Below are positions 8,706 through 30,943 of a stretch of DNA of 35,290 bases, one piece after another (position 1 is the first letter of the stretch; each line of letters begins with the position of its first letter). Both the position numbers and the translations under genes were made by a program. Location of the stretch: positions 1 through 35,290 of the forward strand of contig JADGOF010000002.1 of NCBI GenBank assembly GCA_017883105.1, read 5' to 3'. Source of the DNA: Acidimicrobiales bacterium. GTDB taxonomy: Bacteria > Actinomycetota > Acidimicrobiia > Acidimicrobiales > RAAP-2. Below the pieces are notes generated by a model. The model made no database searches, was not told the DNA's origin, and was given only the letters and a program-made list of their open reading frames with translations.

Positions 8706-8778
8706 AGTTTCGGCCCAAACGCATCCGGCACGCGTGCCCGTGGGCAGTGACGCTGCTCGTGGAACGGCATCAACGACG

Positions 8779-8792
8779 TGAGAGCGCTCACA
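8779..8792. promoter_or_regulatory. candidate LacI-family-type operator TGAGAGCGCTCACA
   Basis: CG-centred palindrome (one mismatched pair), 12/14 match to the CebR-type box TGGGAGCGCTCCCA known from Streptomyces; between FkbH-like and sulfotransferase genes. Confidence 0.3.
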
Positions 8793-8991
8793 GTTACGGT
8801 CTCCTCTTGGTGAGGCGGCTCGAGTGGACTCTTCCACCCACGAGTGACCTACGCCCCGTTCGCGGTGCGTCGAACGACTCTCTGGCCACGATCAGCCCCC
8901 TGCCTTCAGGCAGATTATGCCACCGTGACCGACGGTGCTCAATAGAGGACGACCTGATGGGCGTTCGTGGATCGGGACTAGTGTAGGGCCC

Positions 8992-9864
8992 GTGGGAACG
9001 GGGCCGAGGTCGTCGGATCCGAACGCCTTGCCATCGCGGAGACGAGCGCTGCGCCGGACTCGGGTCCGCCTTCGGCGGGGCGCGAGTGAGGTCCGGACCT
9101 CGTGGGAGATCCGCACCGACCCCACCTATCGCCGGTTGGCGGAGGGCTATGAGCTCCCTGATGGGAGTCGCCGCGTCTACTGCTATCACGTACGAAAGAC
9201 CGCCGGGACCAGCCTGTACCTCAGTTTCATGTCACTCGGCGGCGAGGATCCGATGGACGTGTGGCGTCGGATCGCCGCGTCTCGACTACAGCGGACGATC
9301 AGTGGGGAGTACAGCTTCGTTTCGAATACGCGGAGCCTCTTGGCCGAAGGGGCATACTTCTTCGGCCGATCGCACCGGCCTGCCGCCGACCAGCCACTAC
9401 CACCGAAGACCTTCACCGTGACCGTCCTGAGGGATCCCATCGAGCGGGTCCGCTCCTACTTCGACTATCTGGTGGCCGGCGACGATCCGAGCTCCCCAGG
9501 GAGAGTGGCAACTCGTGAGCGCCGCAGGACGTGGGGTGGCTTCGACGCCTTCTTGGACGTGGTGCCCGCCACGGACCTGTTGAACCAATTGGCGATGTTC
9601 TCGGAGCGCCATGACGTGTCCGAGGCGGTCGATCGCATCGCCGCATGTTCGAGCGTGTTCTTCACCGAGGACTTTGCCGGCGGGCTCGCCGCGTTGGGAC
9701 GGCGCCTCGAACTGCCGCTGGTGGAGCGCCAGGCCCGTGTGACGGGAACCCGGTCGTTGTTGACCGATGCACAGGTGGAGCGCCTCCGAGCCAGGCTGGA
9801 GCCGGAGTACGAGCTGCTCCGGCTCCTCGGCGAGGGCGGAATCGCCCCAGCCCCGACCGGTTGA
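8992..9864 (+). CDS. sulfotransferase family protein (ST1)
   Basis: CYHVRKTAGTSLYLSF 5'-phosphosulfate-binding loop and VTVLRDPIERVRSYFDYL 3'-phosphate motif. GTG 8992 preferred; TAGTGT 7 nt upstream. Confidence 0.8.
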   Translation: MGTGPRSSDPNALPSRRRALRRTRVRLRRGASEVRTSWEIRTDPTYRRLAEGYELPDGSRRVYCYHVRKTAGTSLYLSFMSLGGEDPMDVWRRIAASRLQRTISGEYSFVSNTRSLLAEGAYFFGRSHRPAADQPLPPKTFTVTVLRDPIERVRSYFDYLVAGDDPSSPGRVATRERRRTWGGFDAFLDVVPATDLLNQLAMFSERHDVSEAVDRIAACSSVFFTEDFAGGLAALGRRLELPLVERQARVTGTRSLLTDAQVERLRARLEPEYELLRLLGEGGIAPAPTG

Positions 9865-9872
9865 GTCTGCTA

Positions 9873-11255
9873 CTACGCGGGCGAACCGGCGTCCAGCAAT
9901 CGTTGGTTGCACTCGAAGCTGCGGCTGTTGGCAAATGCCACCGCGGCAAGTTGCGAGCGGACCCCGAGCTTCCTCAGGACGGAGCGGATGTGGGAACGGA
10001 CGGTGGTCAAGGAGACGACCAGGTTGTCGGCGATCTCCTGGGCCGAGTACCCAGTCGTGAGATAGAACAGGACGCGGCGCTCACTTGCGGTCAGAAGCAG
10101 GAGCGACTCGAAATGCGAGGGGTGGGCGTGTGCATCCATCTCGTTGGCCGGATCGCCGTCATCGAGGGCGTGCAGACGCTGCTCCAGCTCGGACGGAAGC
10201 TTGTCGAGGTCGAGCACGACCGTAGCCCCACGTTCGAAGCAGTCACTGAGTGCCCCGGCACCGGCCCCGGCGCTGACGGCCAGGACCTCGACTCCCTGTG
10301 CGGCGAATGCATCCACGAGCTTCCCGGGGACGCACCAGGTGCTCGAGGTCCAATTCGTGAAGTTGCCCGGCGGCTCGTTGCCCACGACGATGATCGCGAG
10401 GTCGAGTTGTCGACCGTTGATTGTCATCTCCGGCCGGTCGTCGACGGTGAGCGCGACGGCCTCTGCTCGGAACCCGAGTCGATTGGCCGCCGATGATGCG
10501 GCGAGTGTTGCCAACCCCGGCGTGCCCGGGGCCATGGGATGGGGATCCACCACCAGCACGGTGCCCACCACAACGGCTGACGAGACATCCGTGGTGCGGC
10601 CGTTGATGGTCAGATCGGCGTCTCCCCGGTCATCCTCGGTGTCGCCACGGTCGCCGTCCTCGACATGATCGGCGCAGACTCGGACGATGGTGCGATGGCG
10701 GAGCAGTGGGGCGGGAGCTGACGTCGGAAGATCCGCGCGACGCGCGTCGGCCTCGTGTCGGAGGTGACCCTCGGTCACATCCACGGGAGGTGTTCCCCCA
10801 CCGAGGAGCCTGTCGATTGTCACCACCGGCGAGGGATGAGCTGGTCCGTCCAATCGAGGGGCGCCACGCTCCGTAGCCTCGCTCGACCCGTGGACTCCGC
10901 CGGAGCGTCGCGGTCCCTGCTCCCGTGCCTGTCCCGAGTTGTGGACCGTGCCATTGAGCCCACGGCCTACGGCCTCGGCCAAGCGCTCCCCCAGCGATTG
11001 TGCGCTGACAGCTCCTGCATCCGGGCCGAAGGTGACCGCGATCTGCGACTTGCTGACTGCGGAGGCCCGGTCATCGGCACGCACCGTCTGCTGGATCTCT
11101 CGTAGGGCCGCCTCGAGGAGGTTGGAAGGCACGGTGCCCAGCGCTCCGGCGTCCGGACCGACCATCCCGAGTTCGACCAGTGCCAGGGTTCGGAGACTCT
11201 CGCCCAGCGGAGCATCAGGCTCCAGGTCATTGACGCTTCGCACATCGATTGCCAT
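9873..11255 (-). CDS. LuxR-type transcriptional regulator with N-terminal degenerate GGDEF-like and receiver-like regions
   Basis: C-terminal LTASERRVLFYLTTGYSAQEIADNLVVSLTTVRSHIRSVLRKLGVRSQLAAV is a canonical LuxR HTH; ATG at 11255. Confidence 0.85.
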   Translation of the reverse strand: MAIDVRSVNDLEPDAPLGESLRTLALVELGMVGPDAGALGTVPSNLLEAALREIQQTVRADDRASAVSKSQIAVTFGPDAGAVSAQSLGERLAEAVGRGLNGTVHNSGQAREQGPRRSGGVHGSSEATERGAPRLDGPAHPSPVVTIDRLLGGGTPPVDVTEGHLRHEADARRADLPTSAPAPLLRHRTIVRVCADHVEDGDRGDTEDDRGDADLTINGRTTDVSSAVVVGTVLVVDPHPMAPGTPGLATLAASSAANRLGFRAEAVALTVDDRPEMTINGRQLDLAIIVVGNEPPGNFTNWTSSTWCVPGKLVDAFAAQGVEVLAVSAGAGAGALSDCFERGATVVLDLDKLPSELEQRLHALDDGDPANEMDAHAHPSHFESLLLLTASERRVLFYLTTGYSAQEIADNLVVSLTTVRSHIRSVLRKLGVRSQLAAVAFANSRSFECNQRLLDAGSPA

Positions 11256-11358
11256 CGTTCCCCCCCGCGCATCGCCCGTCTTACTCAATGGCACAAGGCC
11301 TTGCCCCGCGACGAGACCCCTACGGCCTCCATCCTAGCCCGTGGCCCCCGTTTCGCAA

Positions 11359-11390
11359 GCCCGATCTCATCATCTTTGAGGAGATCGGGC
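11359..11390. terminator. perfect 10-bp stem hairpin at the 3' end of the PAP2 gene
   Basis: GCCCGATCTC (11359-11368) / GAGATCGGGC (11381-11390), 12-nt loop containing the PAP2 stop codon; no T tract. Confidence 0.45.
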
Positions 11391-11993
11391 GGGGGGTCGC
11401 CTCCGAAACTTCCTGTTCACGGCGGGAAGGTGGAACACTCCGTCGATCAGGAGGACCGTGGCCACGCCAAGGACGGCACCCCCCAGGGCATCGCTGGGGT
11501 AGTGCCAACGCAAGCCGGTCACCGCCACGGCCATCATGGTGGTAGCCACTGCCCCCACGACGGCGACGAACGGTCGGGCTCTGGGGACCACGGCGACCAC
11601 CCAGGCGGTGGAGAGCGATGCCACATCGGTCACGTTGCCCGAGGGGTAGCTGAGAACTCCCAGGTAGTGCCGCCCGACAACGGGCTTGAACACGTACTCG
11701 ACCAACAGCGCGGCGGCCAGTGGCCCGGCCACGCAGGCCAGTGCCCGCCACCGGTCCCGGCGCACCACGACCAGGGCGGCCATGATGGACCCGACGGCCA
11801 GCACGGCGGCCGCCCCGAGTTTGGTGGTGTGCAGGTAGAGGGCCGATCCGGGCGACCGGGATAGGGAGCGGAACCCCCAGCGGTCCAGCGCGTTGGGACC
11901 CGGGTGCAGGGCGATGACGATGGCGGTCACCATCGTCCAGCCCATCAGGACCGCGCCGGCGATCACCTCGCTTCGTCCGGGAGCATGAGGCAC
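11370..11993 (-). CDS. PAP2-superfamily membrane protein
   Basis: Hydrophobic helices; FKPVVGR, SYPSGNVT, RWHYPSDALGG match PAP2 motifs 1-3, with PSGN in place of PSGH. Confidence 0.8.
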   Translation of the reverse strand: MPHAPGRSEVIAGAVLMGWTMVTAIVIALHPGPNALDRWGFRSLSRSPGSALYLHTTKLGAAAVLAVGSIMAALVVVRRDRWRALACVAGPLAAALLVEYVFKPVVGRHYLGVLSYPSGNVTDVASLSTAWVVAVVPRARPFVAVVGAVATTMMAVAVTGLRWHYPSDALGGAVLGVATVLLIDGVFHLPAVNRKFRRRPPARSPQR

Positions 11994-12028: not shown

Positions 12029-12964
12029 TCAGGCCGACTCCAGGAACCAGTCGAGGGTGGCCCGGAGCCCGCGCTCCAGGCCGATCGGCTCGATGCCGGG
12101 GAAGAGGTGTCGCAGCCGGGCCTGGTCGGCCTGCGAGTCCCGGACGTCGCCGGCCCGCGGCTCGGTGTGGGCTCGGGTCAGAGGAGTGCCGAGCATGGCC
12201 TCGAGGTGGGCGATGAGCTCGAGGAGGGACACCCGGGTGCCGAAGGCCAGATTGACCGGCTCGAGTTCGGTCACCCGGCGCAGGACCGCGTCGGTCAGCA
12301 CCGCGGTCACACTGCCCACGTAGGTGAAGTCACGGGTCTGCCCACCGTCACCGTGCACCGGAAGCGGCTGGTTCCGGAGGGCGGCCGCGATGAAGGTCGG
12401 GACCACGGCAGCGTAGGCGTGGTCGGCCGCCTGGAGGGGCCCGAAGACGTTGAAGAACCGGAACGCGAGGACCGGCATGCCGAAGGAGCGCCCGTGGGCC
12501 AGGGCGGCGGACTCCGCTGCCAGCTTGCTCGCCGCATAGGGACTGGCCGGCATGGCCACCATGCTCTCGCGTTTGGGCAGGGTGGGGTTGGCGCCGTAGA
12601 CCGACGACGAGGAGGCCACTATGACCTGTACGTCGCCGCGCCGGCGCGCCGCCTCCAGGACCTCCATGGTTCCCGTGGCGTTGGCCAGATGGCTTGCCAT
12701 CGGATCGGCCAGTGAACGCGGCACGGACGGACGGGCTGCCAGGTGCACGATGGCGTCGGCACCCCGGACCACGTCGTCGAGGAGACCGGCGTCGAGGATG
12801 GAGCCCTCGACCAGCTCGACCGACTCGAGTCGGGAGAGGTTCGCGCGATAGCCGGTCGAGAGGTCGTCGAACGCCACCACCCGTCCGACGGCGGGCTCGG
12901 CCGTCAATGCTTGGCAGAGGTTGGCGCCGATGAAACCGGCACCCCCGGTGACGACGACATTCAC
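12029..12964 (-). CDS. NAD-dependent epimerase/dehydratase (UDP-hexose 4-epimerase-like, WbpP/GalE type)
   Basis: VVVTGGAGFIGANL Rossmann motif, SSSSVYG, YAASK catalytic YxxxK, RFFNVFGP. Confidence 0.9.
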   Translation of the reverse strand: MNVVVTGGAGFIGANLCQALTAEPAVGRVVAFDDLSTGYRANLSRLESVELVEGSILDAGLLDDVVRGADAIVHLAARPSVPRSLADPMASHLANATGTMEVLEAARRRGDVQVIVASSSSVYGANPTLPKRESMVAMPASPYAASKLAAESAALAHGRSFGMPVLAFRFFNVFGPLQAADHAYAAVVPTFIAAALRNQPLPVHGDGGQTRDFTYVGSVTAVLTDAVLRRVTELEPVNLAFGTRVSLLELIAHLEAMLGTPLTRAHTEPRAGDVRDSQADQARLRHLFPGIEPIGLERGLRATLDWFLESA

Positions 12965-13050: not shown

Positions 13051-14367
13051 TTACAGCCGCTCGACGGTCGGGCCATCCAGCCGGTTTCGGGTGTCCAGCA
13101 CATAGGGAGCGTGGGCCCTGACCAGCTCAAAGTCGAAGGCATCGTGATCGGTGACGATGACGACGGCGTCGGCCGCACGGAGCTCGGAGATGGTCAGTTC
13201 GACCAGCGGGTACGGCAGCGAGTCGTCCGACAGATGAGGATCGACTACCCGGACGTTCGACCCGAGTGCTGTGAGCAACTGGGCGATCGTCGTCCCGGGC
13301 GCCTCCCGGGCGTCACCGGTGTTGCGTTTGTAGGCCAGTCCCAGCAGGAGGACCTGGGAGCCGTTGACCGCCCGACCCCGGCGGTTGAAGGCGAGGATCA
13401 GTCGGCGCACCACGTAGTCGGGCATGTGCTCGTTGACATCGTTGGCCAGCTCGACGAATCGGAACGGCTGGCCCAGGGTGCGACGCACCTTCCACGACAG
13501 GTAGCTGGGGTCGATGGGGAGGCAGTGTCCACCCACCCCCGGCCCGGGGGTGAACCGGAGGTAGCCGAAGGGCTTGGTCGATGCGGCGTCGATGGCCTCC
13601 CACACGTCGATCTCGAGGTCGGCCGCGAACATGGCCAGCTCGTTGACCAGGGCGATGTTCACATGTCGGAAGGTGTTCTCGAGCAGTTTGGTCAGCTCTG
13701 CTTCCCGAGTGCCCGACACCACCACCGTCCGTTCGACGATGCGGTCGTAGAAGGCCTGGACGGCCACGCGGGACGCGGCGTCGATGCCGGAGACCACCTT
13801 CGGCGTGTTCTCGAGGCGCCAGTCGGGATTGCCCGGATCGATGCGCTCCGGGCTGTAGCCCAAGAAGAAGTCGCGACCGGCCACCAGCCCCGATCCTTCC
13901 TCGAGGAGTGGAGCGACAACTTCCTCCGTGGTCCCGGGATACGTGGTCGATTCCAGGACCACGGTTCCGCCCGGCTGAAGGTGTCGGGCGACCATGCTTG
14001 CCGCGGACTCGACGTAGGAGAGGTTTGGGACCCCGTCATGGAGGGGCGTGGGAACGTCGATGACTGCCACATCGAATCCGGTCATCCGTGACGGATCCGT
14101 GGTGGCTTCGTACCGACTCGATTCGAGGGCGCGTCGGAGGCGGTCGTCGGGGATGTCCTCGACGAAGGACTGGCCGGCATCCAGTCGCTTGATCCGCTCG
14201 ATGTCCACGTCGAATCCGATGACGTCGAATCCAACTTCCACGGCACGAATTGCGAGCGGAAGGCCGACGTAGCCCTGACCGACAACGACGAGCTTGACGG
14301 GCTCGGTGACCGGATTCAACCGTCGATGCCCGGCAGCAAGGTCATGCGGGGACCTGCTGCGAGTCAA
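13051..14367 (-). CDS. nucleotide-sugar dehydrogenase (UDP-GlcNAc 6-dehydrogenase / WbpA-like)
   Basis: VVVGQGYVGLPLAIRA, ESTTYPGTTEEV, KLLENTFRHVNIALVNE, GPGVGGHCLPIDPSYLSW. Start uncertain (TTG at 14367 or 14319). Confidence 0.9.
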   Translation of the reverse strand: MTRSRSPHDLAAGHRRLNPVTEPVKLVVVGQGYVGLPLAIRAVEVGFDVIGFDVDIERIKRLDAGQSFVEDIPDDRLRRALESSRYEATTDPSRMTGFDVAVIDVPTPLHDGVPNLSYVESAASMVARHLQPGGTVVLESTTYPGTTEEVVAPLLEEGSGLVAGRDFFLGYSPERIDPGNPDWRLENTPKVVSGIDAASRVAVQAFYDRIVERTVVVSGTREAELTKLLENTFRHVNIALVNELAMFAADLEIDVWEAIDAASTKPFGYLRFTPGPGVGGHCLPIDPSYLSWKVRRTLGQPFRFVELANDVNEHMPDYVVRRLILAFNRRGRAVNGSQVLLLGLAYKRNTGDAREAPGTTIAQLLTALGSNVRVVDPHLSDDSLPYPLVELTISELRAADAVVIVTDHDAFDFELVRAHAPYVLDTRNRLDGPTVERL

Positions 14368-16372
14368 CGCCTACCGCATCAGAGGGAAGGCAAGCTCGGC
14401 GACCGGATGCCGATCCGCCATCAGATTCGGATCCGGAGACAGCGCGACGAGAGCTCACCGATTGCTCGGACCGAGTCGTGACGAACAGCAACTGCCGCAC
14501 GGCATCATTGTCCCGACGGGCGGTGGCTTCGTGTAGTTGCTGGATGCGGTGTGCGAGTTCAGCGGCTGGTGCTGTCATCGGGATCAGCCGATTGATGTAC
14601 GGGTGATAGGTGGTGATGACCTGTTCGTCGGGCGTCCGGAGCTCCTCGTTGAGTTTTTCCCCAGGACGTACGCCGACCACTTCGATGGAGATGTCGACGC
14701 CCACCTGGTAACCGGAGAGCCGGATCATCCGTTCGGCCAGATCCAGAATGCGGACGGGATCACCCATTTCGAGCATAAAGATCTCGCCGCCGCCGTCGGA
14801 GAGCATCGACGACTCCAGAACCAGCTGGACGGCCTCTTCGACGCTCATGAAGAACCGGGTCATCCTGATGTCCGTGACCGTGACCGGGCCCCCATCGGCG
14901 ATCTGGCGGGTGAACGTCGGGATCACGCTGCCTCGGCTCCCCAGCACGTTGCCAAAACGCACGGTGCAGTAGGAGGAGCCGGCGGGAGCACGAGAGAGGA
15001 CCACCTGCTCGGCGAGCTGTTTGGAGGCTCCCATGACGCTCGAGGGACGAACTGCCTTGTCCGTCGAGATCTGGACGAATCGCTGAGCGCCTACTTCGAC
15101 GGCAGCCTCCACGACGTTGATCGTGCCGAACACGTTCGTCCTTGCCGCGGCGATCGGGTGATCCTCCAGCACGGGAACGTGCTTGTGGGCAGCCGCGTGG
15201 AACACGACTTCGGGCTGGAATCTCCGAAACGCCTCGAACACCGCGGAGCGATCGGTGATGTCAACGAGAGCCTGCATGCTGGGCACCCGCACGGTGGCCG
15301 CGGTGTCATGAAGATGTGTCTCATCGTGATCGAGGAGGACGAGCAGCGCCGGCTCCAGCTCGGCAACCTGCCGGCAGATCTCCGAGCCGATCGAACCGCC
15401 GGCCCCGGTCACCAGGACCCGGCGCCCGACCAACGACCGGCGCACCGTGGCGAGGTCGATGGGGACCGGTGTGCGCCCGAGCAGGTCTTCGATATGAGGC
15501 TCACGAACTCGGCGAAGCGCCGCGGTTTTGCCGGCCCCCTTGACGAGGTGGCTGACGCCTGGCAGCACCTTCATCGTGAGGTTTGCCGATTCACAGGTTT
15601 TCAGCACTCGCTCGACCACCTCCGGTGGCGGATCGGGGATGGCCAGCAGCACCTGTTGAAGGCTGTAGCGGTCAGCGGCATTCGGAATGTCCGCAATGGA
15701 ACCGACCACAGGGACTCCGAGCATGGACAGTCCGTGAGCACAGGTGTCATCGTCGAACACGGCAACCGGAACCAACCCGGCTCCGGGGCTCCGCAGCATC
15801 TCTCGGATTGCCGCCGCACCGGCATCCCGACTCCCTACGACGGCGACGCGGAGACCGACCCGTCGCGAGCCTCGTTGCCAGGCAAACAGGCGGGAATGGA
15901 AGCGAAGGAGCCCCATCCCGGCGGTGGCGAACATGCAGCCGACGACGATGACCGTCAAGGGCACGTGTCGGATGTGAGCACCGCCTCGAAGGGGGTAGAG
16001 GACAATCAACAAGCCGGCAACGCACGACGCCGAAAGCACCAGTTGACGAGCCTCATCCGCACCCGCGTGGCGCCACATGCGCCCGTAGAGCCCGAACACG
16101 CGGTTCGCCGCGAGGGTGATGATCACCGCAACAAAGAGAAAGGTGGTGAATCCCTGCCAGTAGTGGGCCGGTGCCTTGTAGCGGAAGTACGTGACCTCGG
16201 CAAGGCTGTACGCCCCCACGATAACAAACGCATCGAGGATGGTGAATACCAGTCGGGATCGGATCCGGCTGGCCCGAACGGCAATGTTCGTTCTCGAATG
16301 TTCGCTTGACGATGAGCTTCCCGAACCCGGCTTCTCGTTCGCGAAGTCGCTTTGAGACACAGATTCAACCAT
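14342..16372 (-). CDS. membrane-anchored nucleoside-diphosphate-sugar epimerase/dehydratase (CapD/WbpM-like)
   Basis: N-terminal TM region plus VLVTGAGGSIGSEICRQVAELEP, HAAAHKHVPVLEDHP, STDKAVRPSSVMGASK. ATG 16372 preferred over ORF-track start 16408 (purine-rich RBS upstream). Confidence 0.93.
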   Translation of the reverse strand: MVESVSQSDFANEKPGSGSSSSSEHSRTNIAVRASRIRSRLVFTILDAFVIVGAYSLAEVTYFRYKAPAHYWQGFTTFLFVAVIITLAANRVFGLYGRMWRHAGADEARQLVLSASCVAGLLIVLYPLRGGAHIRHVPLTVIVVGCMFATAGMGLLRFHSRLFAWQRGSRRVGLRVAVVGSRDAGAAAIREMLRSPGAGLVPVAVFDDDTCAHGLSMLGVPVVGSIADIPNAADRYSLQQVLLAIPDPPPEVVERVLKTCESANLTMKVLPGVSHLVKGAGKTAALRRVREPHIEDLLGRTPVPIDLATVRRSLVGRRVLVTGAGGSIGSEICRQVAELEPALLVLLDHDETHLHDTAATVRVPSMQALVDITDRSAVFEAFRRFQPEVVFHAAAHKHVPVLEDHPIAAARTNVFGTINVVEAAVEVGAQRFVQISTDKAVRPSSVMGASKQLAEQVVLSRAPAGSSYCTVRFGNVLGSRGSVIPTFTRQIADGGPVTVTDIRMTRFFMSVEEAVQLVLESSMLSDGGGEIFMLEMGDPVRILDLAERMIRLSGYQVGVDISIEVVGVRPGEKLNEELRTPDEQVITTYHPYINRLIPMTAPAAELAHRIQQLHEATARRDNDAVRQLLFVTTRSEQSVSSRRAVSGSESDGGSASGRRACLPSDAVGVDSQQVPA

Positions 16373-16602
16373 CCGAAAGCCCCCTACCTCAACATGATCC
16401 CGCTGCAAACACTAGCGCGCTCGAACGGATTTCGCAGCTGCCGGCATGCTCTCTACCCCCGAAACTGCGGATGTTGCACGATCCCCCATCGCCCGATTCG
16501 TTCCGTGAAGGCCGATGCGCGAGCTGCGACAGTTGCCCCCTTATGAGGTAACCAGCCGACCCTGTGCGCCAAGGACGCTACCGAGATGCTGGCGGGTTGA
16601 CC

Positions 16603-16620: not shown

Positions 16621-16876
16621 CTAGCCGTGAGGAGTGAATCGCAAGCCCGAACGCCGGCAGATCGCGTCCGGCGTGGCCGGGACCGCGAGGGCGTGGTGGT
16701 CCGGAGGTCGGCTTGTGCTGGCGGGGGCAAAATGGCGCTCGACCTGGTGCTGGAGGCGGCTTCTCTGGTCACGATCGGCAGGGGAAGCCGAGGCCCTGCT
16801 ACCCAATAGATGCTGTTCGGAAAGGCCGAAGCGGGTATATGCTTTCTCTTTCACCGGGGCAGGGAGTGGGAGATCG

Positions 16877-18484
16877 ATGGAGCCAATCGACTATGCATCG
16901 GCGCTTCGGCGCAGTTGGCGACTGCTGGTGGGGCTGGGCCTGCTCTTCGGCATCATCGCCGCGCTGATTCCGGTGAGCGGGAAGGTTGCCCATCCCACCT
17001 GGTACGGATTTCCATGGCGCGCCATCACCGTGGTCGGCTCCGCCCCGGCAGGAGGCTCCGTACTGGGCGGCAGTGTGACCGGTGCGCAGATCAGCTTCTA
17101 CGCGACGAGCGCCTCCGTCGAGCAGACCACCGCCTCGGCCGTGGGAATCGACCCGAACGTCTATTACCTGCGTGGACTGTTTTCGGCGGCCGTTGTGCCC
17201 CCTCCCCCCGGGTCACCGAAGAGGGCACAGTCGAACCAAGTCAGGCTCACTGCGAGCGGATCGACCTCTGGGAATGCCGTTGATCTGGCCAACGCCTGGG
17301 CCCAGGCGTTGGACGACAAGCTCACCTCCGTGGCCACCGATCGCCAGAAGGGACAGGCCTCGGGCTCGACTCCGAGCACCGGGTACCAAGTGATTCAAGA
17401 CGCCGTGAGTGGAGTGCGACTCCCGTCGACGATCCGCACGAGTGCAGGACAGGCCGGAAGTCGCAAGGTCCGAGGACTCGTGGGATTGGCAGTTGGTCTG
17501 GCCCTGGGGGCAGCCATCGTCTTATTGCGTGAACTTCTGGACAAGCGATTGCGCAGTGTGGCTCGGGCCGCGTCGACGTTCGACTATCCGGTGGTGGCAG
17601 AGATCCCGATCGTCGAGAGTGCAGACGGGACGCCCGAACAGGGACTGGTGGTGGTGGCCGATCCGACCTCACCCGCCGCAGAGGCCTACCGGATGCTTCG
17701 GATGTCAGTGCTCTTCGAACGGCTGGCACCCACCTCGATCCCGACCAGCGCCTTCGACTACCTCATGCAGGGCGGCAAGGGGAGCTCATCACCCGCCATC
17801 GATCCGACCGAACTGCTTCCCGCCCCGGGACCAGGTGCGCGCAAGGTCGTACTCGTCGTGTCACCCGGCACCGAGCCTACCCGCCCTCAGGTCGCCGCAA
17901 ATCTGGCCGCGGCCTACGCCGAGGCGGGTCAGCGGGTCATTGTCATCAGCACCGCGGACATCGAGGTGGGTGGTCTCGGTGAGGTGGGCGGCAACGCCAA
18001 CGGTGAGATCAGACCGGAGGACGTCGAGTCCCGCCTGGAGCCATCGAGCGTCGAGCACCTCTCCAGCCTGAAGCTTCGGCACTTCATCGACAACAGTGGC
18101 CAACTGGTGGATCGGGCCCCCGCGGTGCTCGATGCGGCACGGAGCCTCTCGGACGTGGTCATCATAGAGACCCTGCCCCTCCTGGCCGTCCACCATGCGG
18201 AGGCGCTTGCGCACGCCGTCGACGTGGTGCTGGTGGTCGGCGAGTGCGGGTCGACCACGTTCGATGACGCTCGACGGTCCGGTGACCTCCTCCGGCGGAT
18301 CAGTGCACCGGTGTTGGGCGTCGTTCTGACCAACGTACGCCTCGAACGCCGCTCGCTCCGTCGGACGCTGCCCCGCCCCGAGGCGGAGTCGGTTGCCGTG
18401 ACGTCGACTGATGGGGAAGCGACCGACCCGGTCGACCCCGGACTGTCCGCGGCGGGCGCCGCGACGACGCACTTCCAGGCCTGA
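16877..18484 (+). CDS. Wzz/chain-length-determinant-like protein fused to a degenerate BY-kinase (CpsD-like) domain
   Basis: MEPIDYASALRRSWRLLVGLGLLFG TM1, RGLVGLAVGLALGAAIVLLRELLDKRLRS TM2, AEAYRMLRMSVLFE, VVLVVSPGTEPTRPQVAANLAAAYAEAGQRVIVIST; ATG 16877 with GGGAGTGGGAG RBS. Confidence 0.8.
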   Translation: MEPIDYASALRRSWRLLVGLGLLFGIIAALIPVSGKVAHPTWYGFPWRAITVVGSAPAGGSVLGGSVTGAQISFYATSASVEQTTASAVGIDPNVYYLRGLFSAAVVPPPPGSPKRAQSNQVRLTASGSTSGNAVDLANAWAQALDDKLTSVATDRQKGQASGSTPSTGYQVIQDAVSGVRLPSTIRTSAGQAGSRKVRGLVGLAVGLALGAAIVLLRELLDKRLRSVARAASTFDYPVVAEIPIVESADGTPEQGLVVVADPTSPAAEAYRMLRMSVLFERLAPTSIPTSAFDYLMQGGKGSSSPAIDPTELLPAPGPGARKVVLVVSPGTEPTRPQVAANLAAAYAEAGQRVIVISTADIEVGGLGEVGGNANGEIRPEDVESRLEPSSVEHLSSLKLRHFIDNSGQLVDRAPAVLDAARSLSDVVIIETLPLLAVHHAEALAHAVDVVLVVGECGSTTFDDARRSGDLLRRISAPVLGVVLTNVRLERRSLRRTLPRPEAESVAVTSTDGEATDPVDPGLSAAGAATTHFQA

Positions 18485-18506
18485 CACCGGCGAACGGGTC
18501 GGTCCC

Positions 18507-19841
18507 ATGCTGCATGCAGTCCAGCTCCCGTCCGAGCCGTTCGTTGCCCTCATCGTTGCGGGCGTTCTCTTCGGGCTCGGCCGGGTCATCATCCAACGGG
18601 TGGCATTCGCCGAGGACAACCCGTGGCTGGTGAGGATCATGACGATCGGCCTGGTCCTCCACCTGTTTGCCGCATTCGCTCAGATCTTCGTTGTCGATCA
18701 CCTCTACCACGGTGTCGCTGACTGGACGAGATACACGCACCAGGGCGCGCTCCTGGCCCCCGACTTCCGCCACTTCAACTTCACCCTGGCCGGTGCCAAT
18801 GTCCGCCAGATCGTCAACGACGGATCTGTAAGCATCGCCACCGGCATCGTGATGACCCTCGTAGGGGTCAACTTGCTGGCCACGTTCCTCGTGTTCAGCT
18901 GGCTCTCCTTCATCGGGACCATCTTCTTCTACCGCGCCTTCAGCCTCACCTTCGCGGGCGCCAACACCCGCCGCTATGCGTTGATGCTGTTCCTGCTTCC
19001 GTCGCTGATCTTCTGGACGGCCGACGTGAGCAAGGAATCGATCATGATGTTCGGCCTCGGGCTCACTGCCTACGGTGCCGCGAAGATCTTTGCTCGCCGG
19101 CGGGGCGGCTTCTCGTTGGTCGTGCCCGGTGTGGCCATCGGTTACTACATTCGGCCCAACGAGCTTATCTTGGTGTTGGCCGGCTTCTCCCTGGCGATGA
19201 TGGTCCCTACCGCGGCATCCCGACGGACCTTCGGCGGACTTCGACGCCTGGCGGGGCTCGCGTTCCTCTTCTCGCTCTTGGGCCTGGCGGTGTACCTGAC
19301 ACTGCACTACCTGCACGGCGGTGCCGGCGGGAAGATATCCCTGCAGCAGACCAACGCCAACAATCAGGGGGTGGGTCTCGGATTCGGGAGCAGTGGCGTG
19401 CCGTATTCGACCAACCTGGTGACCTTCCCACGTGACATCTACGAAGTGCTGTTCAATCCTTTGCCGATCAAGGCTCATGGCACCAGCCAGCTGGTGGCTG
19501 CGCTGGAGAACACGGTGCTCATCGGTCTGATCCTGATGTCCCTCCGCCAATTGCGGATGGTGCCGCGTGCTGCGTTCGCCCGCCCCTACGTGATGCTCTG
19601 TACGGTCTACAGCGGTGCTTTTCTCTATACCTTCGCCGCACTCGGAAACCTGGGCCTCATCGAGCGCGAGCGGGTCATGCTGTTGCCGTTCCTCTTGGTC
19701 CTGCTGTGTGTTCCGCGCGCACCCCGAGGTTCGCCTCCTCGTTATGAATGGGAGCTGCGCCGGCGGGTCCGCCTCCAGGTGAGGCGGGCGGCCGAACGGA
19801 TGAGTGGCCGCTCCGGCGGCTTGGCTCCGGCGGGCAGGTAG
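18507..19841 (+). CDS. polytopic membrane protein, candidate polysaccharide polymerase (Wzy/EpsG-like)
   Basis: Many TM helices; YIRPNELILVLAGFSLAM and GLIERERVMLLPFLLVLL resemble exopolysaccharide polymerase-like proteins; follows the Wzz-like gene. Confidence 0.6.
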   Translation: MLHAVQLPSEPFVALIVAGVLFGLGRVIIQRVAFAEDNPWLVRIMTIGLVLHLFAAFAQIFVVDHLYHGVADWTRYTHQGALLAPDFRHFNFTLAGANVRQIVNDGSVSIATGIVMTLVGVNLLATFLVFSWLSFIGTIFFYRAFSLTFAGANTRRYALMLFLLPSLIFWTADVSKESIMMFGLGLTAYGAAKIFARRRGGFSLVVPGVAIGYYIRPNELILVLAGFSLAMMVPTAASRRTFGGLRRLAGLAFLFSLLGLAVYLTLHYLHGGAGGKISLQQTNANNQGVGLGFGSSGVPYSTNLVTFPRDIYEVLFNPLPIKAHGTSQLVAALENTVLIGLILMSLRQLRMVPRAAFARPYVMLCTVYSGAFLYTFAALGNLGLIERERVMLLPFLLVLLCVPRAPRGSPPRYEWELRRRVRLQVRRAAERMSGRSGGLAPAGR

Positions 19842-19852
19842 GCGCCGGCGGG

Positions 19853-20731
19853 CTACTGCTCGAACGTGTAGGTCTGCAACGTGGGGTGCTTTTCGATGAG
19901 CCGCTCTACGCCGTGCCGTTCGTCCGCCGTCCACTCGACGGCGTCGCGGCTCCGGTTCGTGCTCGGCCAGACAAGACCGGCACAGGACTCGAGGTAAGTG
20001 GCACTTGGCTCGACCTCGAGGAACCGGCAGATGTCGGCAAGAGCCGGGCCGGGGCTTGCCGCGAACGTCTCGTAGTGCACGTCCAGCAGCTCCGCCGGTT
20101 CGAGGAGTGGCCGAACCACGTGGACTGCATCGCAGATCTGTGCGTACCACGCGGTGGCATCGGTCAAGGACATCTTGTGACGGCGGGCCTCGGTGGCGAT
20201 GTTGTCGAACGGGTTCCGGGTCACGTGAATGACCCTGATGGGTACCTTGACGACCAGACGGAGCCGATCCAGGAGTTCGGGCTGCTTGGCAATCTGGAGC
20301 ACGGAGGATCTCGCCCGCTTGTCGCCGATCACCCGTAGGCGTTCGAACTGCCCCTGAAACTGATCGGGCACTTGGTACTGGTAGCCGGACCAGGTCCGGC
20401 CCATCGTGCCGAAATGCTCGTCTCGCCGGAGGATCAGTGAGAAGAGCTGAGTGCGGCGGAATCCGTGCCTCAGGTAGCTGACGGCGTCGAGCTCGTGCGA
20501 AATCACGACTTCGGGATGAGCGTTGAGGACGGCCCCGATCAGCGTGGCACCGCTCCGCGAATAGCCGATGAAGAAGCAGAAGCGCTCCAGGTCGGAGAAG
20601 GCCGGGTTTCGACGGGCGTGCAGTGCGGACGACAGGTACAACGCCGCCCACTCCCGCCCACCACGGGGGTCGCGAAGGCCGTTCCGCACCGGACGGGGAA
20701 GCCGCCGTTCGGGTGATGGCGAGCCAGTCAT
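19853..20731 (-). CDS. sulfotransferase family protein (ST2)
   Basis: FFIGYSRSGATLIGAVLNAHPEVVISHE PAPS loop; VIHVTRNPFDNIATEARRH 3'-phosphate motif. Confidence 0.85.
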   Translation of the reverse strand: MTGSPSPERRLPRPVRNGLRDPRGGREWAALYLSSALHARRNPAFSDLERFCFFIGYSRSGATLIGAVLNAHPEVVISHELDAVSYLRHGFRRTQLFSLILRRDEHFGTMGRTWSGYQYQVPDQFQGQFERLRVIGDKRARSSVLQIAKQPELLDRLRLVVKVPIRVIHVTRNPFDNIATEARRHKMSLTDATAWYAQICDAVHVVRPLLEPAELLDVHYETFAASPGPALADICRFLEVEPSATYLESCAGLVWPSTNRSRDAVEWTADERHGVERLIEKHPTLQTYTFEQ

Positions 20732-20846
20732 CGGACGGTATCCGTCGTCGTCATCAGGGCGGAGGCTATCGGAGATCTCGGCTCGCTCGATGGGGGAGCA
20801 GTGCACCGGCGGAACCGGCGGCACCGGCCGTCCGACGGGGCGACCG

Positions 20847-21998
20847 TCATGTCGGTTCCGGTCGGGAACGGCCGGCGTCCAGAAGCGGTGCGAGGATCGC
20901 CATCCATTGTTCCCCCACTGCCTCCATGCTGAAATGCTTCAGGCAATGCTGTCTGGCTGCCCGCCCCATCGCCGACCGGAGTCCGGGGTCGTCGATCAAC
21001 CTGGCGGTGGCCGCAATCATGCCCGATAGGTCGTCGACGCCGACGATGAAGCCGGTCTCGCCGTCCTTCACGATCGTTCCCACGCCGGGGGCGGCGGTGG
21101 CCACCACCGGCAGGCCCGACAGGCCGGCTTCGATGAGTACGCCGGGCATGCCCTCACCGGCGGGGCGGCTGGGAAAGACCAGGGCATCGGCTCGCTGCAT
21201 CTGCTCAGCCACATCGGAGCGTGTGCCGAGCAGCTCCACGTCCGCTGCTCCCGCCGGCCCTGCCACCTTGTCACGGAGGGGCCCGTCCCCGATGAGCTCG
21301 GCCCGCAGTGTCCTTCCCTCGGCCCGAAGCGCGGCGACCACCTCGACGAAACGGTCAGGCCGCTTGCCGGTGGTCAGCGCGCCGACGAACATGAGGAGCG
21401 GTCGGATCGACTCGCCGTCTCCGCGCCGAGGGTGGAAGACCTCCGGATCGCGACCGTTGGGGGCCAGCGCCACCCGCTCGGGTGGTAACCCGAATCTGGT
21501 GACGCACTCTTCGAGGACCTCCGCTCCCTCGGCGGCCACCACCTCGGGCCGTGCCACAAGATGCTTCCAGAGCCGGAACTGCAGACGGCGATCCGAGCCG
21601 GAGTAGGTACCGATCGCGTAGTAGACCAGCGGCCGCCGGCGGCCGAGCATGGCGGGCACCAGGTACTTCAACGGCTCGCTCCCATGGGCTACGACGACCG
21701 CGGGGGCGAAGTCTGCCAGGGCGGCCCGGAGCCGAATGGCCAGGCGTAGGTTGAATCCCTCCGCTGGGGCGGATCCTCCGGGGTGGTCCAGTGAGAAGTC
21801 GGTCGCCACCCCGGCCGGCCCGTCGAACAGGCTGAGGACCCGGTGGTTCCGGACCCCCGGCGAGTCGAGATGGTCTGCCAGTGCCCGCGCCTCGCGCTGG
21901 GCGCCGCGGGCAAGCTGTGTCGGGATCACGTGGAGCACCAACGGGACGCCTTCCGGGCGTCCGGCCGCGTTGATCGCTTCATTCGTGTGCTCGGTCAT
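20847..21998 (-). CDS. glycosyltransferase family 4 protein
   Basis: LLMFVGALTTGKRPDRFVEVVAAL, VELLGTRSDVAEQMQRADALVFPSRPAGEGMPGVLIEAGLSGLPVVAT; ATG 21998. Confidence 0.88.
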   Translation of the reverse strand: MTEHTNEAINAAGRPEGVPLVLHVIPTQLARGAQREARALADHLDSPGVRNHRVLSLFDGPAGVATDFSLDHPGGSAPAEGFNLRLAIRLRAALADFAPAVVVAHGSEPLKYLVPAMLGRRRPLVYYAIGTYSGSDRRLQFRLWKHLVARPEVVAAEGAEVLEECVTRFGLPPERVALAPNGRDPEVFHPRRGDGESIRPLLMFVGALTTGKRPDRFVEVVAALRAEGRTLRAELIGDGPLRDKVAGPAGAADVELLGTRSDVAEQMQRADALVFPSRPAGEGMPGVLIEAGLSGLPVVATAAPGVGTIVKDGETGFIVGVDDLSGMIAATARLIDDPGLRSAMGRAARQHCLKHFSMEAVGEQWMAILAPLLDAGRSRPEPT

Positions 21999-22155: not shown

Positions 22156-23385
22156 ATGAGAACCCTGATGATAGCCGGTGAGTATCCCTGGCCCGAGGAC
22201 ACAGGCTCCCGAATTCGCTTGGCCATGGTGCTGCGCGGCCTCCGACGCTGTGGTCCTACGGAGCTCTTCTCCGTCGTCTCGAAGTTCCGCACCGACTTCG
22301 ACCCTCCGGACAAGTCGCTGGGTCTGACCAAGGTGGGTCGGGTGGGTTTCGACAATCGACCAGCCACGGGCATCCGCCTGATCCCCACTCTGGCTCGTCC
22401 TTCGATGCCGATCGGGATGCCTTGGCGGGACCGGCAGCTGGTGCAGGCAGCCCTGGCCCGGTTCACCTCGGGAAGCTACGACCTGATCTGGGTCTTCGGA
22501 GCTCGACCCTGGGTGCTGGCCGGTGAGCAGGCGTCCGCTCCGACCATCCTCGACCTCGTCGACCTCGAGGACCAGAAGATCACGGCCCGGCTCGCTGTGC
22601 CCGGTCCGCCGGCGTCCGGGCCGGTGGAGTGGTTGCGGCGCACAGTGGGCACCCTGGTGTCCGAAGAGGAGGTCCGACGCTGGCAGAGGTTGCATCGTCA
22701 GGCGAGTAGGCGTGCATCGGCCACAGTGGTGTGCAGCCTGCTCGACGCGGAGCGGGCCACGGCCAACGGAGTCATGAAGGTGGAGGTCATCCCCAACGGG
22801 TACCCCGACATCGAGCATCCTGCCGGTCGGGTCGTGGTCGGTTCCCCCCCGATCGTGCTGTTCCAGGGCCTCTTGAGCTACCCCCCGAATGTCGAGGCCG
22901 CCCGGCTGTTGACCCAGGAGGTGGGCCCGGCGCTGCGAGCGCTCGTGCCCGCGGCCCAGATTCGGCTGGTCGGAACCCACGACCCGGGATTGATGGCATT
23001 GCACGATCCGCCACGGGTGACTGTCGTGGGTCGGGTACCGGACATGACCGACGAGTTGGCACGTGCCGATGTCGTGGTGGTCCCGATTCGCTACGGAAGT
23101 GGCACCCGCCTGAAGATCCTGGAGGCGTTCGCCCACCGACTGCCCGTGGCGTCGACGACCCTCGGTGCGGAAGGCCTGGGCGCAGAAGACGGTGTGCACC
23201 TGCTCCTCGGAGACAGCGCGCCGGCGCTGGCTGACGCCTGCGCTCGACTGCTCACGGAGCCCGGGCTCCGTGAGGCGATCGCCGAGCACGCCCACGCGCT
23301 CTTCGTCGAACGATTCCGGACCGACGTGGTCGAGGAGCGGGTCAGCCATCTCGCGCGCGAGGTGGTGGAACGTTCGTCCTCCTGA
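22156..23385 (+). CDS. glycosyltransferase family 4 protein
   Basis: VIPNGYPD, VVGRVPDMTDELARADVVVVPIRYGSGTRLKILEAFAHRLPVAST. Confidence 0.88.
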   Translation: MRTLMIAGEYPWPEDTGSRIRLAMVLRGLRRCGPTELFSVVSKFRTDFDPPDKSLGLTKVGRVGFDNRPATGIRLIPTLARPSMPIGMPWRDRQLVQAALARFTSGSYDLIWVFGARPWVLAGEQASAPTILDLVDLEDQKITARLAVPGPPASGPVEWLRRTVGTLVSEEEVRRWQRLHRQASRRASATVVCSLLDAERATANGVMKVEVIPNGYPDIEHPAGRVVVGSPPIVLFQGLLSYPPNVEAARLLTQEVGPALRALVPAAQIRLVGTHDPGLMALHDPPRVTVVGRVPDMTDELARADVVVVPIRYGSGTRLKILEAFAHRLPVASTTLGAEGLGAEDGVHLLLGDSAPALADACARLLTEPGLREAIAEHAHALFVERFRTDVVEERVSHLAREVVERSSS

Positions 23386-23446
23386 CCCGTCGGGATCTTC
23401 TCCCCCCAACCACCGGTTTCGGCTGCATCGCGTAGCATGCCCTCCG

Positions 23447-24514
23447 ATGGAAGTCCTCGCGCTCTATCTCCCGCAGTTCCACCCGATTCCGGAGAACGAC
23501 ACGTGGTGGGGCAAGGGCTTCACCGAGTGGACCAATGTCGCCAAGGCGCGCCCGCTCTACCGTGGCCATGCACAGCCGCGCCTCCCTGCCGACCTCGGCT
23601 TCTACGATCTTCGGGTCAGCGAGACCCGGGAGGCCCAGGCCGACCTGGCCCGGCGGTACGGGGTCACCGGCTTCTGCTACTGGCACTACTGGTTCGCGGG
23701 CCATCGCCTCCTCCAACGCCCGTTCGACGAGGTGCTGTCCTCGGGAACGCCCGACTTCCCATTCTGCGTCGCATGGGCCAATCAGACATGGTCGGGAATC
23801 TGGCACGGAGCGCCCGACCGGGTCCTCATCGAGCAGACCTATCCGGGTCCGGAGGACGATCTCGAGCACTTCTCCTACCTGAGGCAGGCCTTCGAAGATC
23901 CCCGGTATGTGAGGATCGCAGATCGACCCCTCCTGTTCGTCTACCAACCGGGCGGGCTCCCCGATCCGGCGCGCTTCGTCGAGCGTTGGCAGAAGATGGC
24001 CCACGATGCCGGGCTCGGTGGGCTGTACCTGGTCGCTTCGCTCGGTGAGTCCGACTATGCCTCACACGTGGAGGACGGGTTCGACGCCGCGGTCTACTTC
24101 CACCTCCCGTTCGGCCGGGACTGGGCTACCCGAGTCCGCGAGCGCATGCTCGCTACGGGCCTCGCCCGCGGCCCGAAGCGCTATCCCTACTCGGAGGCAC
24201 CCGTTACACCTCCTTCCTCTCTCGGGGGACGCATCTTCCCGAGCGTGTACCCCAACTGGGACAACACCCCGCGCCTGGGCCGACGGGGATTCGTAGCGGA
24301 AGGGTCGACACCCGAGCGCTTCGGCGCCCAGGTGCACCGTGCCATCGAGATCGCGGAAGCCAATCCGCCCGGTGAGCAGGTCCTGGTCATCAAGTCGTGG
24401 AACGAGTGGGCCGAGGGAAACTATCTGGAACCCGACCGGGAGTTCGGCTTGGGTCGCCTGAAGGCTCTGGCCAACCAGCTCGCTCCACCCCCAGTTGCCG
24501 GTCCGGGCCGTTGA
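23447..24514 (+). CDS. WbsX-like / GH99-like domain protein
   Basis: ALYLPQFHPIPENDTWWGKGFTEWTNVAKARPLYRGHAQPRLPADLGFYDLR and KSWNEWAEGNYLEPD are characteristic of WbsX-like proteins; ATG 23447 chosen over ORF-track start 23165. Confidence 0.9.
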   Translation: MEVLALYLPQFHPIPENDTWWGKGFTEWTNVAKARPLYRGHAQPRLPADLGFYDLRVSETREAQADLARRYGVTGFCYWHYWFAGHRLLQRPFDEVLSSGTPDFPFCVAWANQTWSGIWHGAPDRVLIEQTYPGPEDDLEHFSYLRQAFEDPRYVRIADRPLLFVYQPGGLPDPARFVERWQKMAHDAGLGGLYLVASLGESDYASHVEDGFDAAVYFHLPFGRDWATRVRERMLATGLARGPKRYPYSEAPVTPPSSLGGRIFPSVYPNWDNTPRLGRRGFVAEGSTPERFGAQVHRAIEIAEANPPGEQVLVIKSWNEWAEGNYLEPDREFGLGRLKALANQLAPPPVAGPGR

Positions 24515-25825: not shown

Positions 25826-26806
25826 ATGACAACAGCGGATTCTGCAGGTGTCAGCGCGCTCGTTGTCACGGATCTCGCCTCAATCCCCGACGAGCCTCCG
25901 CCGGATATCATCTACCGCCACAAGGTGCGATTGATCGAGTCGCTCAGGGTGCTGTGGGCACACCGTGAGATCGTCTACACACTGGCCGAGCGCGACTTCC
26001 GGGCTCAGTACAAACAGGCGACGTTGGGAATCCTGTGGGCGATCCTGAGCCCGGTGGCCACCCTGGTGGTGTTCGTCGTCGTGTTCTCACGAGTGAAGTC
26101 CTTTGGAAGCGAGGGTGTGCCCTTCGCCTTGTACGCATTCGTCGGGATTCTGTGCTGGAGCTTCTTCGCCACTTCCCTTGGTTCGGGAGGGAACTCGTTG
26201 CTCACCAACAAGGCGTTGCTGGCCAAGACGCAGTTCCCCCGGGAGTGCTTCCCCCTCGAGACCATGCTGGTCGGAGGGTTGAACACGGTGCTGTCCTGGG
26301 TGCCGCTGGCCATCCTGTTCGTGATCTTCGGTCGCGCTCCGGCATGGACCACGGTGTGGATCCCGCTCTTCATGGTCATCGAGGTGGTCTTCGCGGCCGG
26401 GATCACCCTGGCCATCTCCAGCATCATCATCCAGATGCGTGATCTGGTGCAGGTGCTACCCCTCATCATTTCGCTGGGGTTGTTCGCCACGCCCGTGATC
26501 TGGCCTTTCTCGAAGATCCCAACCAGTCTCCACCTGGCATTCGGGCAGCATGTGCATCGGGCCGTGGTGGACGGCCACGTGGTCGCCGGGCACTGGGTCG
26601 GGGGCATCACGGTCAATCCCCAGATGATCTACGGGTTTCTCAATCCGTTGGGGCCGGTCATCGACAATGCGAGGCGCACGATGCTGTTGGGCCTGTCCCC
26701 CGATTGGAAACTGGTGGCGACCGGAGCGGTGGGCGCACTGCTCTATCTCATACTCGGATATCGGATCTTCAAGCGATTCGAGGTGAACTTTGCCGATATT
26801 GCCTGA
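25826..26806 (+). CDS. ABC-2 type transporter permease (Wzm/TagG-like polysaccharide exporter)
   Basis: YTLAERDFRAQYKQATLGILWAILSPVATLVVFVVVFSRV; NPLGPVIDNARRTMLLG; adjacent Wzt-like ATPase. Confidence 0.92.
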   Translation: MTTADSAGVSALVVTDLASIPDEPPPDIIYRHKVRLIESLRVLWAHREIVYTLAERDFRAQYKQATLGILWAILSPVATLVVFVVVFSRVKSFGSEGVPFALYAFVGILCWSFFATSLGSGGNSLLTNKALLAKTQFPRECFPLETMLVGGLNTVLSWVPLAILFVIFGRAPAWTTVWIPLFMVIEVVFAAGITLAISSIIIQMRDLVQVLPLIISLGLFATPVIWPFSKIPTSLHLAFGQHVHRAVVDGHVVAGHWVGGITVNPQMIYGFLNPLGPVIDNARRTMLLGLSPDWKLVATGAVGALLYLILGYRIFKRFEVNFADIA

Positions 26807-27983
26807 CGGAACCATCGAGGTCGAGCATGTCTGGAAGAAGTTCCGCGCTGATCGGACGGCGCCGAAGTTCTACGACCAGATGAAGAGATTCGGGCGATCG
26901 ATCGGGTCGCCGGGCCGACACGACTACCGGTGGGTGCTGAAGGACGTCAACCTGGAGGTCCCTCCGGGGGGCACCTTGGCGTTGATCGGCATCAATGGCT
27001 CGGGCAAGACGACCATGCTGAAGATCATCAGCCAGGTGACCTACCAGTCGGCCGGACGGTGCTCGGTGCAGGGCCGCATCGGTGCACTTCTCGGTGTCAC
27101 CAGTGGTATCCAGCCGGAGCTCACCGGCCGGGAGAACGTCTTCCTCTATGGTGCGGTGCTCGGCATGGGACGGCAGACCATCAGAGAGCGCTTCGAGGAG
27201 ATCGTAGAGTTCGCCGGCCTTACCGATGCCATCGACCGCCAAGTGAAGTTCTACTCCATGGGCATGCAGATGCGCCTTGGATTCTCGATTGCCGCATTCC
27301 TCGAACCGGACATCCTCCTGGTCGACGAGGTACTGTCGGTGGGGGACGCCAACTTCCAACAGAAGTGCCTCAATCGCATCGGCGAGGTTGTTCGCTTGGG
27401 CACCACGCTGCTCTATGTCTCCCACGACCTGGCCTCGGTCGAGGCGTCCTGCGAACGTGCGGTCTGGCTGGCAGATGCCGTTGTCCAGGCGGTCGGTCCC
27501 ACCAAGGAAGTGGTGAGCAAGTACCGGTCGGCCGTTGAGCAGAACGCGGCCTTGGCGACCTCGAGCGAGGGAGCGGTGCAGGTCCTGAAGGTCGAGATCA
27601 ATGCGTCCGACGGCGGCCAGGTCCGGTCTGAGAGCGACCTCGACATCTGCCTGAGGCTGCAGGCGCCTGAGGCCTACGATGCGAACTTCTTCATCGGAGT
27701 TTCCCAGGGCACTGCCTTCCCGATGTTCATCGTCCGCCACAGCGGGTCCTTCCCAGCCGGGGAGTTCGAGGTGAGGTGCCGCTTGCGTCACGTGCCGCTC
27801 AGCAGGGGTCGCTACTCGTTGTGGCCGGCGATGTCCGGACACGCCAGGGGTAAGGGCAAGCCCCTCTTGCCCTGGAGACCGGTGACGTCCTTCGATGTGA
27901 TGGGACCGGATCTACCCAAGTTGCCAGAAGGTGTGATGGTCCTCTCACCTGTCTACGTGGGAGCTGACTGGCGGGTCGACTGA
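26790..27983 (+). CDS. ABC transporter ATP-binding protein (Wzt/TagH-like) with C-terminal Wzt-C-like domain
   Basis: GINGSGKTTMLKII Walker A, signature-region KFYSMGMQMRLGFSIA, LLVDEVLSVGD Walker B; about 130-residue C-terminal beta-rich extension. TTG start overlaps the permease end by 17 bp. Confidence 0.92.
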   Translation: MPILPDGTIEVEHVWKKFRADRTAPKFYDQMKRFGRSIGSPGRHDYRWVLKDVNLEVPPGGTLALIGINGSGKTTMLKIISQVTYQSAGRCSVQGRIGALLGVTSGIQPELTGRENVFLYGAVLGMGRQTIRERFEEIVEFAGLTDAIDRQVKFYSMGMQMRLGFSIAAFLEPDILLVDEVLSVGDANFQQKCLNRIGEVVRLGTTLLYVSHDLASVEASCERAVWLADAVVQAVGPTKEVVSKYRSAVEQNAALATSSEGAVQVLKVEINASDGGQVRSESDLDICLRLQAPEAYDANFFIGVSQGTAFPMFIVRHSGSFPAGEFEVRCRLRHVPLSRGRYSLWPAMSGHARGKGKPLLPWRPVTSFDVMGPDLPKLPEGVMVLSPVYVGADWRVD

Positions 27984-30850: not shown

Positions 30851-30878
30851 GGTGTCACGACAGCGGTCACGCCGCAGG

Positions 30879-30943
30879 TTGCCACAAGCATCTACTTGCC
30901 ACAACTACCGTCGTTCGAACGACCCCGCGGGGAGGGTCTCCCC
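30879..30943. promoter_or_regulatory. repeat/palindrome cluster between ST3 and asnB
   Basis: Direct repeat TTGCCACAA at 30879-30887 and 30896-30904; palindromes GTCGTTCGAACGAC (30910-30923) and CCCCGCGGGG (30923-30932); GGGGA-GGGTC-TCCCC (30929-30943). Confidence 0.4.

Follow-up and report, generated by a model that had tools for sequence, protein, structure and literature searches.

PCP-3 proteins (KpsE/CtrB) are phosphorylation-free co-polymerases that work with the ABC exporter of ABC-dependent capsules, and they have no cytoplasmic kinase-like domain. For the PCP-2a BY-kinase Wzc, the proposed cycle leads from a dephosphorylated octamer to phosphorylated monomers and back, and the K540M variant, altered at the P-loop lysine, is an octameric non-phosphorylated form which was used to obtain the octamer (PMC8285477). 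In CapB, the EX2RX2R motif supplies half of the octamer interface, and in S. aureus the inactive BY-kinase CapB1, found beside its active paralogue CapB2, has been proposed to act on it in mixed oligomers (PMC3795738). EcpK/EpsV of M. xanthus and HfsB/HfsA of C. crescentus, in which a pseudokinase is thought to be the scaffold for the PCP-2 protein, have been proposed to function without phosphorylation (PMC12004946). Finally, fused PCP-2/BY-pseudokinases are known in Gram-negatives, for example S. meliloti SMc01795 and V. vulnificus VV1_2305 (Cuthbertson et al., cited in PMC12004946).

The window analysed here, i.e., the whole stretch of 35,290 nucleotides of an Acidimicrobiales genome (GCA_017883105.1, contig JADGOF010000002.1), contains a gene for a protein of the fused type within a polysaccharide locus (Table 1). 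Its ATG at 16877 (MEPIDYASALRRSWR; MEPID...) is the start conserved among orthologues, the open frame extends upstream to a GTG at 16634, and a strong GC3 bias is observed in the frame. The hydrophobicity scan gave two transmembrane segments, and in the AF2 model (mean pLDDT 72) and by Foldseek the two helices enclose a small alpha/beta ectodomain and a kinase fold is present on the cytoplasmic side. Foldseek matched the model to full-length Wzc (E about 1e-20), then to the isolated kinase domains of Wzc, CapAB, Etk and BceF. The homology with Wzc and CapAB, for which an alignment was suggested in the preliminary description, is significant, with sequence matches in the PDB to CapAB (4jmp, E=2e-7) and Wzc (3la6, E=4e-7) and a match to TIGR01007 of NCBIfam at E=2e-11, the 43.6 bits being below the cut-off of 108.05 bits. 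PADLOC gave no match. Sequence, fold, phylogeny and constraint together make a Wzz-like co-polymerase fused to a pseudo-BY-kinase the best description of the protein, as was first stated. The presence of a constrained cytoplasmic pseudokinase domain is contrary to the PCP-3 definition.

Table 1. Coordinates of the pseudokinase gene, its domains and the surrounding polysaccharide genes (window positions, except in the last row).
Feature	Position	Strand	Basis or remark
NAD-dependent sugar epimerase	12032..12964	-	synteny
UDP-glucose dehydrogenase (UGD)	13054..14367	-	synteny
CapD/FlaA1-type nucleotide-sugar dehydratase, divergent neighbour, conserved	14345..16408	-	synteny
PCP-2a-like protein with BY-pseudokinase domain	16877..18484	+	535 aa plus stop
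TM helix 1, residues about 14-30	16916..16966	+	AF2 helix H14-30; hydrophobicity scan
Extracytoplasmic Wzz-like domain, residues 36-195, fast evolving	16982..17461	+	AF2 alpha/beta pattern; full-length Wzc match; NG86 dN 0.65-0.84
TM helix 2, residues 196-221	17462..17539	+	AF2 H196-221; conserved in all PCP-2 relatives
EX2RX2R oligomerisation motif, EAYRMLR (269-275), retained	17681..17701	+	alignment; motif role from PMC3795738
Low-confidence linker (probably disordered) preceding kinase core, 286-320	17732..17836	+	pLDDT below 50
P-loop (329-337), degenerate, SPGTEPTRP: no Gly at 335, Arg336 for Lys, Glu333 new and invariant	17861..17887	+	clade alignment
Walker A' segment (358-364), altered, STADIEV: acidic residue probably kept, 1-aa insertion, RRP lost	17948..17968	+	
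Walker B region (426-439), altered: Glu431 for Asp, His439 new and invariant	18152..18193	+	
C-terminal tail (491-535), no tyrosine	18347..18481	+	canonical mean 4.3 Tyr
Conserved multi-TM neighbour gene, Wzy position, fold weakly GT-C-like	18501..19841	+	synteny, alignment, AF2/Foldseek (weak)
Wzm-type ABC polysaccharide exporter permease	25826..26803	+	PF01061; NF050109 best, below cut-off; synteny
Wzt-type ABC polysaccharide exporter ATPase	26790..27980	+	PF00005; NF010065/NF050108, below cut-off; synteny
Split pseudokinase gene	L078 (G181:C42) 8659-10106; L079 (G188:C84) 8903-10551		

To compare the motifs, 14 clade members, the window included, were set against 49 canonical relatives of the same order. 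The CpsD-like order of motifs given in the preliminary description is found in full, with EAYRMLRMSVLFE, VVLVVSPGTEPTRPQVAANLAAAYAEAGQRVIVIS, ISTADIEVG and DVVIIETLPLL all present. The replacement of the Walker A GKS/T that it reported is borne out by SPGTEPTRP in the ORF and extends to the clade: the P-loop Lys position carries Arg in 14/14 members and Lys in 49/49 canonical relatives, the P-loop Gly is lost in the former (14/14) and kept in the latter (49/49), and Ser/Thr is mostly Pro in the clade, so that neither the G nor the K survives in any member (0/14). As this loss is fixed in the clade while both residues are kept by every canonical relative, the degenerate P-loop represents more than chance. 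The two other replacements have to be read differently in part. The A' segment ISTADIEVG is altered and its RRP is lost, but the acidic residue is probably still there, with an insertion of one residue (STxD/E). ETLP does stand in the place of DTPP, but as the local form of an E-x-P-P shared by the clade, and the change itself is that of the Walker B Asp into Glu, found in the window and altogether in 12/14 members, the remaining two retaining Asp. As first noted, the C-terminus has no tyrosine cluster, no Tyr being present after residue 490, and the tails of 12/14 members contain none. E333, R336 and H439 are invariant across the clade, E333 and H439 being new, E431 is near-invariant, and EX2RX2R is strict in 11/14 members.

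Since the P-loop Gly and Lys and the Walker B Asp are gone, canonical ATP binding by the pseudokinase domain is predicted to be probably lost. The hypothesis of an unusual but active kinase, with Arg standing in for Lys and the shifted acidic residue performing the catalysis, appears very improbable. The Lys to Arg change is conservative and an acidic residue is retained in both A' and Walker B, but the P-loop Gly is lost, the Ser/Thr is mostly Pro, the tyrosine tail to be phosphorylated is missing, no phosphatase lies near the gene and the K540M form of Wzc, altered at the same Lys, is non-phosphorylated (PMC8285477).

The clade has its members in two families of Acidimicrobiales, soil actinobacteria, and when the motif columns are removed a branch with SH-aLRT 99.8 still sets its 14 rows apart, the nearest kin in the tree being Acidimicrobiales kinases with intact motifs. 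In the phylum-wide search only one further strong match was obtained, with the lysine loop intact. The two closest pairs have NG86 dN/dS values of about 0.26-0.29 for the kinase-like domain, and their three motifs give a dN of 0.15 and a dS of 0.77-1.6; with synonymous sites close to saturation in the more distant pairs, the ratios are rough. The ectodomain dN exceeds that of the kinase-like domain in every pair, by 1.6 to 2.7 times, and the motif columns are the slowest evolving among the parts compared. The pseudo-active site is thus under strong purifying selection. In two genomes of one genus, the gene has undergone fission, and the PCP and the pseudokinase are encoded there by two ORFs in the conserved position of the fused gene, an arrangement that mirrors the separate PCP and kinase of PCP-2b. 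This fission is the one observation in keeping with a decaying gene or an assembly artefact, an explanation hardly to be credited given the open frame with high GC3, the same change in 13 further clade members, the dN/dS below 1 in the kinase-like domain, the conserved synteny, and the fission itself, which is common to the two genomes with both halves open. Chance or a pseudogene is rejected on the orthologues, synteny and dN/dS.

Three further degenerate proteins (G092, G049, G069) are located near the clade in the tree. A quick tree needed three changes across the order, but a tree that joins all 17 degenerate rows in a single clade was compatible with the data (p-AU 0.79), and for this reason several independent losses are not claimed. 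Degenerate BY-kinase domains in the order, with their P-loop replacements, are found at L139:7206-8870 (G049, FDGEGAVV), L140:7422-9350 (G069, MMGKGELI), L081:988-2607 (G092, ETETGGVV) and L135:1027-2844 (G181, HGGPAIPT). Separate from the clade, a PCP-2a protein (L004, G009:C57) has the P-loop EGRST, with Lys changed to Arg, and its other motifs are canonical. A tandem duplicate of the fused pseudokinase gene is present in L069 (G148:C89) at 8252-11809.

The conservation of the old active site may be read in another way: the remodelled pocket would bind nucleotide, sugar nucleotide or another ligand, and binding, not phosphorylation, would switch the oligomer. Nucleotide binding in some form is still compatible with the sequence, the A' acidic residue is probably kept, and the polar E333, R336 and H439, together with E431, at the slowest evolving columns could mean a new ligand. 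Nevertheless, the P-loop Gly and Lys are gone in 14/14 members and a purely structural lock would give equal conservation; we consider this ligand-binding switch unlikely. Somewhat more specifically, and rather unlikely as well, the pocket might have been rebuilt as a new ligand- or partner-binding site (E333, R336, H439), through which a PCP ring coupled to Wzm/Wzt would be gated.

The preliminary description called for a search for a separate active BY-kinase and phosphatase. The pseudokinase is carried by ten congeners, nine in addition to the window's own genome (G000, 70% complete), and an intact BY-kinase (G[DE]GK[TS]) occurs in eight of the ten (G160, G175, G193, G201, G216, G219, G222, G225), most of the intact kinases having a Tyr-containing tail of the YQxYxY kind. 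Such a kinase is thus present in most congeners, often with an LMW phosphatase on the same contig, but it was not found in the two others carrying the pseudokinase, G000 and its nearest relative G210, a 130-contig MAG that is 98% complete. Three congeners (G185, G213, G228) have the active kinase only and one (G206) has neither. The active kinases lie on other contigs, and the active and pseudokinase genes were never found in one locus. Several active-kinase loci include Wzy_C, Bac_transf and LMW phosphatase genes, or a flippase gene (G148:C88, G213:C8), and no Wzm/Wzt was found in the active-kinase regions read. In G210, where the pseudokinase is present, no match to an active BY-kinase, Bac_transf or PF13440 flippase was obtained. 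In G000, the short contig C299 (L154) holds Bac_transf and LMW-PTP genes of a kinase-type locus, so its active kinase may merely be missing from the 70% complete assembly.

These data bear on the hypothesis that the pseudokinase is an allosteric or dominant partner of a separate active BY-kinase in mixed oligomers. The co-occurrence in 8/10 congeners, the CapB1/CapB2 precedent (PMC3795738) and the retained EX2RX2R are in agreement with it, but the two genomes with no active-kinase match, the separation of the two loci and the three congeners with the active kinase only make it quite improbable. Because G210 gives no active-kinase match at 98% completeness, an active partner is probably not required, and an obligate partnership is unsupported. 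Of the allosteric or scaffold role suggested initially, the scaffold is thus favoured and the allosteric partner of an active kinase less so, since G210 has no active kinase and the two loci are separate.

Comparison of the locus over congeners, across genera and into family f45 showed a largely conserved order, in which the epimerase, UGD and CapD genes are divergent from those for the pseudokinase, the membrane protein, glycosyltransferases, Wzm and Wzt. Wzm/Wzt are found in most neighbourhoods reaching far enough. In these draft MAGs, no flippase, sugar phosphotransferase (Bac_transf), phosphatase or active BY-kinase was found near the pseudokinase gene; among the 16 genomes searched, PF13440 (Polysacc_synt_3, flippase) had no match on any pseudokinase contig and no LMW-PTP was present within 20 kb of the gene. 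In drafts of this kind, G210 included, a flippase or kinase missing from the locus carries little weight. The membrane protein at the Wzy position has no Pfam or NCBIfam match, and Foldseek of its pLDDT 68 model gave only a weak GT-C resemblance (ALG12, E=0.09), so it is not assigned as a certain Wzy; it could be a real Wzy, in which case the pathway may not be purely ABC-dependent.

As for the polymer, two sulfotransferase-family genes in the locus (19856-20938 and 29936-30904, both on the minus strand) suggest sulfation. A strong WbsX-type glycosyltransferase (PF14307, E=2e-127) is encoded at 23165-24511 on the plus strand. The best scores of Wzm/Wzt, below the cut-offs, are with mycobacterial galactan and teichoic-acid exporters. 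Roughly 30-50 kb from the pseudokinase gene, relatives (L127, L129) have a Glycos_transf_4 (WecA-like) gene and, in G222, an AftD-like gene. The exporter scores and the WecA-like and AftD-like genes hint at an arabinogalactan-like or wall-linked polymer.

Taken together, we find it fairly likely that this protein is a phosphorylation-independent PCP-2a in which a fixed BY-pseudokinase forms a scaffold, either static or controlled by binding, in a Wzm/Wzt (ABC-exporter) polysaccharide pathway. Its probable role is that of a structural switch that needs no phosphorylation. The EX2RX2R contacts, together with the Wzz ectodomain, would still bring the membrane ring together, and the loss of the P-loop Lys and the tyrosine tail would leave this assembly to protein contacts alone. 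The former nucleotide pocket may be locked by salt bridges in which Arg336, the invariant Glu333, the acidic residue at 431 and His439 take part, and the pseudokinase disc would not be the site of a phosphorylation-driven assembly and disassembly switch. Such a scaffold could help to organise the polymer on which the neighbouring membrane protein and Wzm/Wzt act, or to restrict its length. By analogy with EcpK/EpsV and HfsB/HfsA, for which the same model was proposed, the clade would have kept the ring and removed the phosphorylation.

The comparison with these systems shows likenesses as well as differences. EcpK has no Walker motifs and no Tyr tail, as in the present clade, but EcpK and HfsB stand alone whereas the present pseudokinase is fused to the PCP (except for the split genes of G181 and G188), and EcpK/EpsV belong to a Wzx/Wzy pathway; in the present locus Wzm/Wzt are present and no flippase was found, but the protein at the Wzy position could be a Wzy. 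Architecture, fold and EX2RX2R are common to Wzc/Etk and the present protein, which differs by the absence of the Walker A Lys and Gly, the Walker B Asp, the Tyr cluster and a nearby phosphatase, and by a shorter ectodomain. An inactive BY-kinase beside an active paralogue, as for CapB1, occurs in most congeners, but in the present clade it is the catalytic motifs that have disappeared, and no active paralogue was found in the closest relative. Compared by description, PCP-3 proteins are alike in being phosphorylation-free and associated with an ABC exporter, and the kinase-like domain exists only in the present protein. The proteins of the SMc01795/VV1_2305 type, as far as they are described in the citing paper, have the same single polypeptide with a PCP and a BY-kinase-like domain described as a pseudokinase; on that description they are set apart as Gram-negative from a clade of Acidimicrobiales (Actinomycetota) with a Wzm/Wzt locus and an invariant E-x2-R...H signature of its own. 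The clade probably arose independently of them, as its closest neighbours in the tree are motif-intact kinases of Acidimicrobiales. Within the open-licence literature, to which earlier reports may add, what appears new is the actinobacterial clade, its fixed replacement signature and remodelled pocket, the ABC-exporter locus and the presence of active paralogues in most but not all congeners.

Tyrosine phosphorylation has recently been proposed to be dispensable for the function of some PCP-2 proteins; these results support that proposal and extend it to an actinobacterial lineage and to an ABC-exporter locus. In the rather unlikely case of a rebuilt pocket, actinobacteria would have a means of controlling the chain length of ABC-dependent polysaccharides without phosphorylation. 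As active and dead paralogues occur side by side within a genus, and the dead form seems to be alone in at least one relative, the need for the phosphorylation cycle becomes testable by comparison.
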